DNA from: Bordetella parapertussis
GTDB taxonomy: Bacteria; Pseudomonadota; Gammaproteobacteria; Burkholderiales; SG8-39
Direction of reading: 5' to 3'
Assembly (NCBI GenBank): GCA_945861875.1
Contig: CAMAWC010000002.1
Coordinates: 25,766 to 89,765, forward strand
Length of the DNA stretch: 64,000 nucleotides
The translations under genes and the position numbers were made by a program. The first letter of the stretch is position 1. Every line of letters begins with the position of its first letter. Below are positions 46,018-64,000 of the stretch, in pieces. The notes beneath the pieces were generated by a model that was given only the letters and a program-made list of their open reading frames with translations, did not search any database and was not told the origin of the DNA.

Positions 46018-46146
46018 CCCGTCATTCCGGGGCCGCGTAGCGGAACCCGGAACCCATGGGGTTCGTCGCTTCAGCACAAACCCAACCCCATGGATTCCCG
46101 CTCCCCGATTAAGGCATTCGAGGACAAGCTTCGCGGGAATGACGGG
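46018..46146. repeat. GTCATTCC-ended palindromic element between ubiD and SDR gene
   Basis: Ends CCCGTCATTCC (46018-46028) and GGAATGACGGG (46136-46146) are exact inverted repeats. The middle has further short palindromes (CCCATGG/CCATGGG-like). No open frame inside. One of a family of such elements in this window. Confidence 0.8.
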
Positions 46147-46956: not shown

Positions 46957-47000
46957 TTTCTGCTTTCGTAGTTCTTCAGATTTGAGGGAACCTCTAAAAA

Positions 47001-47083
47001 TTGTCATTCCGAGGCCGCAGGCCGAGGAATCTGCTTCGTGCTCCCCCTGAAAAGCAGATTCCTCGTTTCACTCGGAATGACAA
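47001..47083. repeat. GTCATTCC-ended palindromic element with nested inner palindrome
   Basis: Outer arms TTGTCATTCCGAG (47001-47013) and CTCGGAATGACAA (47071-47083). An inner inverted repeat GAGGAATCTGCTT / AAGCAGATTCCTC lies at 47024-47036 and 47052-47064. Between the SDR start and the ubiA stop, with no coding content. Confidence 0.85.
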
Positions 47084-47106
47084 AATTCGGATTGTTAGCG
47101 ATGCCT

Positions 47107-47979
47107 TTAAATCCATTTCCTGCTTTCGTAGTTAAGAACAATGCCGGCGAATATCGCGGCACCCAGCCAGTTGTTGTGCACGAACGCCCTGAAGCAACCG
47201 TCACGGTCACGGCCGCGAATGAGCGTGTAGTGGTACAAGGCCATGCCGGCGGCCACCGCAAGGCCGGCGTAATAAAACAGGTTAAAGCGCAGCCGCCAGC
47301 CCACCCAGGTCATGACGGCGAACATCGCGGCGTAACTCAGCATCACCGCCACCACGTCCCAGCGGCCGAAGGTGATCGCCGAGGTGCGGATGCCGATTCT
47401 CAGGTCATCATCACGATCGACCATGGCGTATTCCGTGTCGTAGGCAATCGCCCAGAGGATGTTGGCGCCAAGCAGCACCCACGCAAACCAGTGCACCGCA
47501 CCGTTATTCGCGGCGAACGCCATCGGGATGCCAAAGCCGAAGGCGATGCCCAGGTAGGCCTGCGGCATGGCGAAAAAACGCTTCGCATAGGGATACGTCA
47601 TGGCGACGAACAGCGCGCCGAACGACCAGGCGATGGTCTGCCAGTTAAGAAGCAACACCAGCGAAAACGCCAGCAGCGCAAGGAACAAGGCCAGCAGCCG
47701 CGCCTCCTTGCGCGTCACCGTGCCCGCCGGCAGCGGCCGGTTGCGCGTGCGCTTCACATGGCGGTCGAACTCGACATCGACGCTGTCGTTCCAGACACAG
47801 CCGGCCGAGCGCATCAACAGGGTACCGAGGCAAAAAATGACCACCACCGCCCAATCAGGCCGGCCCCTCGCGCTGATCCACACCGCCCACAGCGTCGGCC
47901 ACAGCAGCAGCAGCGTGCCGATGGGCTTGTCGAGTCGCATCAGGCGCTCGTACTCGGTCAGGCGTTGCTTGATATCCAT
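47107..47979 (-). CDS. ubiA: 4-hydroxybenzoate polyprenyltransferase
   Basis: 290 residues from the ATG at 47979. Nine or so membrane helices. The two Asp-rich motifs that bind Mg-polyprenyl diphosphate are NDSVDVEFD and DRDDDLRIG. It attaches the isoprenoid tail to 4-hydroxybenzoate. Its partner ubiD lies 1.2 kb on, across the SDR gene. Confidence 0.96.
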
Positions 47980-47998
47980 TTCCAATAACCCCTAATCT

Positions 47999-48078
47999 GT
48001 CATTCCGGGCAAAGCGAGGAATCTGCTTTTCAGTGGCCGTAAAAAGCAGGTTCTTCGGCCTACGGCCTCAGAATGACA
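47999..48078. repeat. GTCATTCC-ended element upstream of ubiA
   Basis: TGTCATTCC (47999-48007) and GAATGACA (48071-48078), an 80-bp palindromic unit with an inner AGCAGATTCC-type repeat degenerate on one side. Part of the 300-bp gap upstream of ubiA (47980-48280). Confidence 0.7.
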
Positions 48079-48095
48079 ATGCTGGGAGGCCTTAT

Positions 48096-48234
48096 TTAAG
48101 GAAGCTCTGATTAAGTCCATAAATCGTCATTCCCGCGAAAGCGGGAATCCATTTTGACTCAATGAATCCACGCTTTAGGTCAAGGTGGATTCCCGCTTTC
48201 GCGGGAATGACGGACTTAATCAGAGCTTCCTTAA
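48096..48234. repeat. Long inverted repeat (about 139 bp, 23-bp perfect ends)
   Basis: Ends TTAAGGAAGCTCTGATTAAG (extends to 48118) and its exact complement at 48212-48234. Inside are two copies of ATTCCCGC...GCGGGAAT: CATTCCCGCGAAAGCGGGAA on the left and its mirror on the right. Same repeat type as the one at 63811-64000, here without any insertion. Confidence 0.9.
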
Positions 48235-51323: not shown

Positions 51324-53285
51324 ATGGCCCGCGGCACGCTACACGACAAGCTTTTCGGTGCGCCGCTTGACCCGATGAACAAAAAAACGCGCCACGGCAT
51401 CGCCCTGGTGGCCTTTATTGCGTGGGTGGGCCTTGGCGCGGACGGCATTTCGTCTTCCTGTTACGGCCCCGAGGAGGCATTCCGCGCCCTTGGCGAACAC
51501 ACCCACCTCGGGCTGTATCTCGCACTGGCGACGGCGGTGACGGTATTCATCATCGCCCTCGCCTACAACCAGGTGATCGAGTTGTTTCCCACCGGCGGCG
51601 GCGGTTACCGCGTTGCGACCAAGCTGCTCGGGCCCTACGCCGGCGTCATCTCCGGCGCGGCGCTGATCCTCGATTACGTGCTGACCATTTCCATTTCCAT
51701 CGCCAGCGGCGTCGATGCCATGTTCAGCCTGCTGCCGCTTGGCTTCCAGGCCTACAAACTCGGCACGGAGATCATGCTGATCGTCGTGCTGACCGCACTC
51801 AACCTGCGCGGCATGAAGGAAGTCATCACCATCCTGCTGCCGATTTTTCTCGGCTTTGTCATCACCCATGCGCTGCTCATCGTCTACGGCACGCTCGCCC
51901 ACGTCGACATGATTCCGGCCCTTATCCCGGCAACGCTGGCCGAAACGTCAAGGTTGTCGAGCGAACTGGGCTGGGCGCATGTGGCCGCGCTGATGCTGCT
52001 CGCCTACTCGCAGGGCGGCGGCACCTACACCGGCCTTGAGGCGGTTTCGAACAACGTCAACGTTCTCGCCGAACCGCGGGTGCAGACCGGCAAGGCCACC
52101 ATGCTCTACATGGCGTTGTCCCTCGCCTTTACCGCCGGCGGCATCATCCTGCTGTACCTGTTGTGGGACGCGAAACCGGTCGAGGGACAGACGCTCAATG
52201 CCGTGGTGTTCGGATCCATCATCCGCAGCCTCGGCTGGGAGAGCGAACTGATGATCCAGGGCGCGATCATCCTGGTGCTGGCGCTCGAAGCCGGGCTGCT
52301 GTTTGTCGCCGCCAACACCGGTTTTCTGGGCGGACCGGCGGTGCTCTCGAACATGGCCGCCGACTCCTGGGTGCCGCACAAGTTCCGCTACCTGTCGACG
52401 CGCCTGGTGACCGAAAACGGCATCCTGGTGATGGGCCTCGCCGGCCTTGCCATCCTGCTGGTGACCGGCGGCAGCGTGTCGCTGCTGGTGATCCTCTACA
52501 GCGTCAGCGTGTTCCTCACCTTCGCCATTTCGCTGTTCGGCCTGTGCGCCTACTGGTGGCGCAGCCGCGCCAAACAAAAGAAATGGCTCGGGCGCCTGCT
52601 GCTCTCGGCCTCGGGCTTTGTCGTGTGCGCCGGCATCCTCGCCATGCTGCTGTCGGAAAAATTCTTCGACGGCGGCTGGATCGCCGCCCTGATCATCGCC
52701 GCCATCGTCGCGCTGTGCATCGCCATTCGCGGTCATTACTTCAAGACCAAGCAGCAACTGCGCGCGCTGGATGCCACCTTCGAAGCGGTCGCCTTCGGCA
52801 GCGTGACCAACCCGCCGGCGCCCGACCCGGCCAAGCCCACCGCGGTATTCCTGGTCGGCTCCAGCCGCGGCGGCGGGCTGCACGCCCTGCTCTGGGTGCA
52901 GCGCATGTTCCCCGGACATTTTTTCAATTTCATATTCATCAACGCGCGCACCGTCGACTCACAGGCCTACGGCGGCGGCGAGGAAATGGACGTGATGAAG
53001 GTCGAGGCCAATTCCTCGCTGCGCTATTTCGACAACTTCTGCAACAGCAAGGGCTGGGCGGCCAAGTCCTACCTCGCCTTTGGCACCGACCCGATCGACG
53101 ACTTCTCCAGTCTGTGCGAAAAAGTCCACGCAGACTTCCCCAACAGCATCTTTTTCACCAGCAAGCTGATTTTCGCGCGCGACAACTGGTTCACCCGCCA
53201 GTTGCATAACGAGGCGGCGCTGGTATTGCAACGACGCCTGCACCTGCACGGCCTGCAAATGATCATCCTGCCGATGAAACTGTGA
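51324..53285 (+). CDS. APC-superfamily permease with C-terminal cytosolic domain (KimA-like)
   Basis: 653 residues with about 12 membrane segments. The first-helix motif WVGLGADGISSSCYGPEEAF is like the potassium permease KimA, and a soluble domain of about 150 residues follows (about 490-653, starting after IRGHYFKTKQQLRAL), with a nucleotide-binding-like AVFLVGSSRGGGLHAL. KimA imports potassium with protons; other APC members carry amino acids. The potassium reading is tentative. Confidence 0.75.
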   Translation: MARGTLHDKLFGAPLDPMNKKTRHGIALVAFIAWVGLGADGISSSCYGPEEAFRALGEHTHLGLYLALATAVTVFIIALAYNQVIELFPTGGGGYRVATKLLGPYAGVISGAALILDYVLTISISIASGVDAMFSLLPLGFQAYKLGTEIMLIVVLTALNLRGMKEVITILLPIFLGFVITHALLIVYGTLAHVDMIPALIPATLAETSRLSSELGWAHVAALMLLAYSQGGGTYTGLEAVSNNVNVLAEPRVQTGKATMLYMALSLAFTAGGIILLYLLWDAKPVEGQTLNAVVFGSIIRSLGWESELMIQGAIILVLALEAGLLFVAANTGFLGGPAVLSNMAADSWVPHKFRYLSTRLVTENGILVMGLAGLAILLVTGGSVSLLVILYSVSVFLTFAISLFGLCAYWWRSRAKQKKWLGRLLLSASGFVVCAGILAMLLSEKFFDGGWIAALIIAAIVALCIAIRGHYFKTKQQLRALDATFEAVAFGSVTNPPAPDPAKPTAVFLVGSSRGGGLHALLWVQRMFPGHFFNFIFINARTVDSQAYGGGEEMDVMKVEANSSLRYFDNFCNSKGWAAKSYLAFGTDPIDDFSSLCEKVHADFPNSIFFTSKLIFARDNWFTRQLHNEAALVLQRRLHLHGLQMIILPMKL

Positions 53286-53337
53286 CCGGAACGACGGCCG
53301 GCGCCGCGCTATAGCCAGGGTCAAAATGAATTCCCGC

Positions 53338-53421
53338 TTGGCCGTTCCTCGAAACTTCTTCTCGCTGCGCGAGACTCGTTTGGCCGTTCCTCGAAACTTC
53401 GTCTCGCTGCGCGAGACTCGT
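53338..53421 (-). repeat. Tandem pair of 42-bp units inserted in a palindromic repeat (copy 1)
   Basis: Minus-strand unit begins ACGAGTCTCGCGCAGCGAGA and has two copies (53380-53421 and 53338-53379, one mismatch). Flanks match the host repeat seen uninserted at 48096: CGTGAAA on one side and GCGGGAATT on the other. Each unit contains the hairpin GTCTCGC-GCA-GCGAGAC. Confidence 0.9.
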
Positions 53422-53632
53422 TTTCACGGGGATGACGACGCTGCGGTGCATGGGTGTTGCGTTGGGGCACGGGCTTTGCAGCGCCATCGCGGCCGAGTCG
53501 TGGGTTGGCAATCGGGTTGGAAATCGCCGGATGGGTGGCCGGATTCGTGATAAAAGAGCGGGTGTTCGCGTTGCTTTGGCTGAGGCGTGCCACAGCGCAC
53601 CCCGGCATGCCGGCTCAAGCCATGCGCATCGC

Positions 53633-53712
53633 GCATCGGCGCATCGGCGCATCGGCGCATCGGCGCACCGGCGCACCGGCACACTGGCACACTGGCGCAC
53701 CGGCACACCGGC
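53633..53712. repeat. Ten-copy 8-bp microsatellite
   Basis: Ten contiguous 8-bp units: GCATCGGC x4, GCACCGGC x2, ACACTGGC x2, GCACCGGC, ACACCGGC. 80 bp in all, ending about 75 bp before a TATAAT box. Confidence 0.95.
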
Positions 53713-53794: not shown

Positions 53795-53842
53795 GCGAAA
53801 AATGATTAATAAATAAGGAATGTGGCTTTCCCTCACTCAAAT

Positions 53843-63810: not shown

Positions 63811-64000
63811 AGGGAAGCTCGGATTAAGTCCAGAAATCGTCATTCCCGCGAAAACGAGTCTCGCGCAGCGAGACGAAGTTTCGAGGAACGGCCAAACGAG
63901 TCTCGCGCAGCGAGACGAAGTTTCGAGGAACGGCCAAGCGGGAATCCATTTTGACTCAATGAATCCACGCTTTAGGTCAAGGTGGATTCCCGCTCCCCGA
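63811..64000. repeat. Palindromic repeat with inserted tandem 42-bp units (copy 2; runs off the window)
   Basis: The left part (AGCTCGGATTAAGTCC, then CGTCATTCCCGCGAAA) matches the 48096 repeat. Two identical 42-bp units follow (63854-63895, 63896-63937), after which the host resumes at GCGGGAATCCATTTTGACTC and continues to ATTCCCGCTCCCCGA at the window end. Confidence 0.9.

Follow-up and report, generated by a model that had tools for sequence, protein, structure and literature searches.

A 42-bp unit in CGTC-1 REP loops as a putative member of a dispersed family of short modules inserted 3' of GAA

A 42-bp unit that lies in tandem in the loops of palindromic repeats is probably a member of a dispersed family of non-autonomous insertion modules, 28-45 bp long, that would be joined 3' of GAA by an enzyme supplied in trans; we put the probability of this reading at roughly 0.6. 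Judged from sequence comparison, the unit is a discrete insertion module and not merely a variant of the loop in which it lies, and the rule common to its sites is 'after GAA'. We draw this separability and this rule from modules found in REP feet, in other repeats and at coding sites, together with argB and lolD orthologues with and without the module; related units, and sites in the same host repeat, are not independent in the evidence for an insertion module. The genomes compared demonstrate that modules have been gained or lost exactly 3' of GAA and in one orientation, with tandem rows at the same point.

Results

Tandem units split the loop of a CGTC-1 REP

Two tandem pairs of the unit lie in the 64-kb window, by which we mean the whole stretch of DNA analysed (Table 1). 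We took the unit boundaries as AACGAG...CGGCCA, with a run of A that leaves the phase ambiguous by 1-2 bases; the original prediction of 42-bp tandem pairs at two places is borne out, with coordinates one base off the phase used there. As also predicted, both pairs share the same loop point and the same orientation to the host: each splits CGTCAT(T/C)CCCG(C/T)GAA^AGCGGGAAT (here and below, the caret marks the insertion point), within a hairpin that reads CGTCAT(T/C)CCCGCGAA^AGCGGGAATCC. The host pattern occurs twice in the window, with 0.01 occurrences expected. In pair 1, GAGAAG replaces GAGACG in one unit, and the host stem is imperfect (ATCCCCGT / GCGGGAAT). Both pairs are intergenic; pair 1 has a permease-like ORF (end at 53285) on one side and a regulator-like ORF (start at 53822) on the other, and about 60 bp separate pair 2 from the end of contig C2, where the window also ends. 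A degenerate 8-bp tandem repeat, GGCGCATC, occupies 53630-53690, about 200 bp from pair 1.

The host hairpin, CGTCATTCCCGC-GAAA-GCGGGAATCCA, fits the definition of a CGTC-1 REP given by Di Nocera et al., 2013 (PMC3733652). REPs of this class have a CGTC (or TGTC) tag, an 8-bp stem that begins with AT, a 4-nt loop and a CCA tail, occur mostly as head-to-head dimers, form a superfamily that includes Neisseria dRS3 and Rickettsia RPE-6, and, according to the paper that defined them, apparently have no dedicated transposase (PMC3733652). The tag, stem, loop and tail of this class are present in the host (CGTC-ATTCCCGC-GAAA-GCGGGAAT-CCA). The two empty REPs listed in Table 1, the first of which confirms the earlier sighting of a host without insertion, face each other with CGTC outside, and there are many further head-to-head pairs among the REP-like places of the genome. 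The module, which inserts into CGTC-1 REPs, has the CCA ending in common with them but differs in lacking the CGTC tag, in having another stem and in its conserved 3' part of about 20 nt.

Other repeats accompany the REPs in the window. A MITE-like element with the ends GGAAGCTCTGATTAAGTC / GACTTAATCAGAGCTTCC encloses a head-to-head REP pair at 48096-48234 and again at 63813-64000, and copies of this element with its REP pair are frequently found at contig ends. There is also a 113-bp inverted pair, 76% complementary (46991-47103 / 47977-48089), with another hairpin repeat family, CGAGGAATCTGCTTTTC.

Table 1. Units, host REPs and a further insert in the window (1-based window coordinates).
Feature	Position	Strand
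Tandem pair 1 of the 42-bp unit	53339..53422	-
Unit copy, second in its own reading direction, GAGAAG variant	53339..53380	-
Unit copy, first in its own reading direction	53381..53422	-
Host REP left arm CGTCATCCCCGTGAA, module inserted after GAA	53423..53437	-
Host REP right arm AGCGGGAATTC	53328..53338	-
Tandem pair 2 of the 42-bp unit	63853..63936	+
Host REP left arm CGTCATTCCCGCGAA	63838..63852	+
Unit copy 1, inner hairpin GTCTCGC-GCA-GCGAGAC	63853..63894	+
Unit copy 2, identical to copy 1	63895..63936	+
Host REP right arm and CCA tail AGCGGGAATCCA	63937..63948	+
Empty host REP CGTCATTCCCGCGAAAGCGGGAATCCA	48125..48151	+
Second empty REP, head-to-head partner of the REP at 48125	48186..48212	-
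27-bp insert V GCTTGTCCTCGAATGCCTTAATCGGGG at GAA^A of another REP (REP start 46144, -)	46103..46129	-

All units of the genome lie at one point of the REP loop

Pattern searches of the whole genome (G000; 4.07 Mb in 208 contigs), with full reading of REPs confined to the retrieved loci, gave 29 units at 25 loci, 21 of them single and 4 double, while a reversed control pattern had 0 matches genome-wide. All 29 are at GAA^A of a REP loop and in one orientation. No unit was found at an unrelated site in this genome, and most of the approximately 270 REP-like places returned by the host search are empty, both as expected of an element targeted to a host that also exists without it. In the fully read REPs, an empty loop measures 4 nt, a loop with one unit 46 nt and a loop with two units 88 nt; the other loops contain a different insert.

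Taken by itself, this confinement to REP loops suits a history in which the unit is a long-loop variant of the CGTC REP that entered once, REP and unit then spreading together and tandems arising by slippage. Long loops that are self-complementary have been described for some REP families (PMC3733652), and the larger MITE-like element carrying a filled REP is present in at least three copies, which indicates that spread of the compound does occur. Nonetheless, we think it doubtful that this history accounts for the unit as a whole. The two host stem types, ATTCCC...GGGAAT and ATCCCC...GGGGAT, each carry both unit subtypes, and the arms of the REP still match each other in nearly all filled copies, pair 1 of the window being an exception. 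The loop point also accepts different inserts, modules of the family lie outside REP loops in other genomes (in a REP foot, the argB leader, lolD and zipA), and exact orthologous empty sites exist at argB and lolD. Slippage, moreover, would not be the sole source of tandems, given rows of unlike units in L102 (four units) and L165 (two). Within this genome, fresh insertion and joint spread of REP and module fit equally well, and an inserted module may also travel with its REP.

Two further inserts occupy the same loop point. Insert V (GCTTGTCCTCGAATGCYTTAATCGGGG; 27 bp) has 44 copies in the genome and was at this point in 11 of 11 readable non-redundant contexts, one of which is in the window. 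Since a V-like sequence in Gallionella-type REPs has a different orientation and does not follow GAA, we do not claim the GAA rule for V. Insert W (TCCCACTCCGGGGACYAG; 18 bp) was read twice (L044, L045). Neither V nor W is related to the 42-bp unit, and the GAA^A loop point is common to all three.

Related modules follow GAA in other genomes

A scan with 19 bases of the core against one genome per bacterial or archaeal species returned 46 stretches, a few of them apparent chance matches, mostly from Gallionella, Nitrosomonadales and Burkholderiales MAGs. The family, seen in MAGs of Gallionella type and of other betaproteobacteria, has the consensus AACRAG-(variable stem-loop)-GA(A)GTTTCGAG-NNN (three or four variable bases)-CGGCCA, with a length of 28-45 bp. 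Modules were present in 26 of 100 genomes of the G362 family, one of which has 26 copies, in 2 of 149 genomes of a nearer sample (the unit's own genome and G030), and, with the exact pattern, in 2 of 399 genomes order-wide; none was found in plasmids, phages or IMG/VR. Nearly all of the family material comes from MAGs. We found no earlier description of the core sequence in the literature searched.

Outside the unit's own genome, the left flank is GAA in 83 of 97 distinct sites and AA in 94 of 97, whereas right flanks vary; host repeats recur among the 97 sites as related copies, and the count is not one of independent events. CGTC REP feet (GGGAA^TCCAG) account for 38 of these sites and REP loops for 17, and the remaining 42 lie elsewhere, among them further dispersed palindromes of G484 and positions that are unique. 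For sites outside REPs, a preference for hairpins was not apparent when folding was compared with that of control GAA sites (p = 0.55). The original prediction had offered a choice between a targeted non-autonomous element and one compound repeat that spreads as such. A separable module stands, but it is not bound to one repeat, since its sites in relatives also include REP feet, repeats of other kinds, and unique or coding sequence; for compound spread there are the MITE-like copies with a filled REP and a G484 palindrome with 1-3 units. In the loop of this palindrome, ACGGGCATGGC...GCCATGCCCGT, there are between one and three modules of 33 bp, which mostly follow CTGAA (L114, L166, L270, L276, L277, L280 and L282, mostly from genome G484).

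Orthologous sites with and without the module

The argB leader is empty in L193, where it reads TTTTGCGAGCTTTCGCCTGGTGGCGAA^ATGCCTGC (GGCGAA^ATGCC), and is also empty in L216. A module of 44-45 bp sits at the caret in L085, L087, L088, L093, L122 and L191, the rest of the sequence being near-identical. In lolD, the empty L222 encodes MSKQMENGKPE-TGNV, and the filled L098 and L221 encode MNKPMEIENRK-NEAEGRSFEERP-TGNV, with an insert of exactly 36 nt, in frame. At both genes the block AACGAG...GGCCA explains the difference between filled and empty sites, with a possible duplication of at most one A. The aligned orthologues thus demonstrate gain or loss of an exact block without target duplication of more than one A. 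Empty and filled states give no order of events, and precise loss is possible.

These junctions also bear on whether a dedicated enzyme is needed at all. Units might shift between repeats by short-homology gene conversion or template switching, and the GAA of the left flank is indeed nearly always common to donor and acceptor, as are the REP arms. At non-REP sites, however, the right junction is exact though no flank is shared there, and we consider this route quite improbable.

The stem is maintained and most units are free of stops

We compared 51 distinct inner stems: the four outer pairs are formed in 86% of cases, and both sides have changed in 43 cells, a count that never exceeded 27 when columns were shuffled 500 times. 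From this covariation, the stem of the module is maintained. When the compound is folded as single-stranded DNA, the REP stem is kept and an inner AAAC-GA-(stem)-GAA-GTTT helix is added; AAAC/GTTT hardly varies, and therefore contributes no evidence of covariation. Isolated units with short stems fold no better than shuffled sequences.

A covarying stem could also mark a structured RNA element that is kept for its function and dispersed only incidentally. Indeed, the argB-leader position is conserved in several Gallionella-type genomes, with a compensated change in L088, where the stem is CCTCG/CGAGG instead of the CTTTG/CAAAG of the others. We nevertheless judge this very improbable, given that modules are scattered, often in coding frames, that sister genomes do without them, and that a scan of eight unit loci matched no Rfam family at gathering score.

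The earlier statement that the unit has no coding capacity proved too strong. All six frames are stop-free in 70 of 85 distinct units, compared with 10.8% of shuffled sequences, although the 85 units are related and this freedom from stops is one property of their shared core. Moreover, relatives of the unit lie in frame in genes for proteins checked with Pfam: a LolD-type ABC ATPase, ZipA, a binding-protein-dependent permease, an RNB exonuclease, an NAD(P)H-hydrate dehydratase (NnrD) and a HAD-domain P-type-ATPase-like protein. In a U32 peptidase with an in-frame module, the domain was matched in two stretches. Several of the in-frame inserts consist of a REP plus a module. In the permease loop, the module lies in the left REP in L160 and in the right REP in L107; L305 and L321 have REP sequence without a module, and most genomes have no REP there. 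This loop repeatedly holds in-frame REPs and other repeats across genomes (L293, L107, L305, L321), possibly by independent arrivals of REPs at a permissive loop.

Candidates for the mover

One candidate source of the joining activity is a Y1 HUH transposase, with the modules as IS200/IS605- or RAYT-type passengers cut as single strands 3' of a short motif. Modules resemble REP/REPIN-RAYT and IS200/IS605 derivatives in their internal hairpin, in the lack of target duplication and in motif-directed insertion, here 3' of a short left motif (GAA at 83 of 97 sites), and they have asymmetric ends. They differ in having no GTAG tag. We detected no Y1_Tnp (PF01797) in the unit's own genome or in six other unit-bearing genomes (G030, G478, G490, G494, G521, G555), many Y1-bearing relatives have no match to the unit, and presence of Y1 does not track modules across the own genome and 43 others. 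The RAYT/Y1 mover put forward at the outset is therefore not supported, and we regard passengers of this type as unlikely, even though the transposase could have been lost once the modules had spread, or could be missing from a MAG that is incomplete.

An IS91-type Y2 mover was not favoured either: the unit's own genome has a weak partial Y2_Tnp fragment and G484 a clearer partial match, and six other carriers tested have none. None of the 46 scanned stretches contains a longer autonomous form sharing the right end of the module; L118, considered as such a form, was rejected on its different repeat context.

Discussion

We propose that an enzyme acting in trans recognises the stem-loop and ends of the module and joins it 3' of GAA. 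Joining would probably take place on single-stranded DNA, since the ends do not form inverted repeats, the target is not truly duplicated, and REP loops and feet make up over half of the targets. Compounds of REP and module would then multiply through whatever moves REPs, units would also duplicate in tandem, and a mostly stop-free module with a length that is a multiple of three could sit within genes and be read through.

Several known systems share part of this description. Like MITEs such as Correia/NEMIS and RUP, the module is short, dispersed and non-autonomous; unlike them, it has neither terminal inverted repeats (its ends are AACGAG / CGGCCA) nor a target site duplication. Rickettsia palindromic elements of the RPE-1 type are 105-146 bp long and have terminal inverted repeats (Ogata et al.; PMC2229807). 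The likeness to RPEs lies in a small palindromic piece with open frames that sits in frame in conserved genes, with no mover identified; in-frame position is seen for relatives of the module in lolD, zipA, the U32 peptidase gene and NnrD, and not in the window. The module differs from RPEs in its size of 28-45 bp and its asymmetric ends. We conclude that the module family is real and discrete, and is best placed, as a variant, among the small palindromic repeats to which RPEs and REPs belong. More tentatively, the family may represent a class of minimal mobile DNA, mostly stop-free hairpins of 28-45 bp placed 3' of GAA by some enzyme, for which REP loops could serve as general docking sites, a role suggested by three unrelated inserts at the same loop point in one genome.

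The module looks like one of the smallest mobile pieces of DNA known. For the spread of CGTC REPs and RPE-like palindromes, a smaller element adds a test case, and its defined target motif, exact ends, covarying stem and filled and empty orthologues make the joining reaction testable. The copies that lie in frame within zipA, lolD and further genes show that short peptides can be added to conserved proteins with the reading frame left intact.
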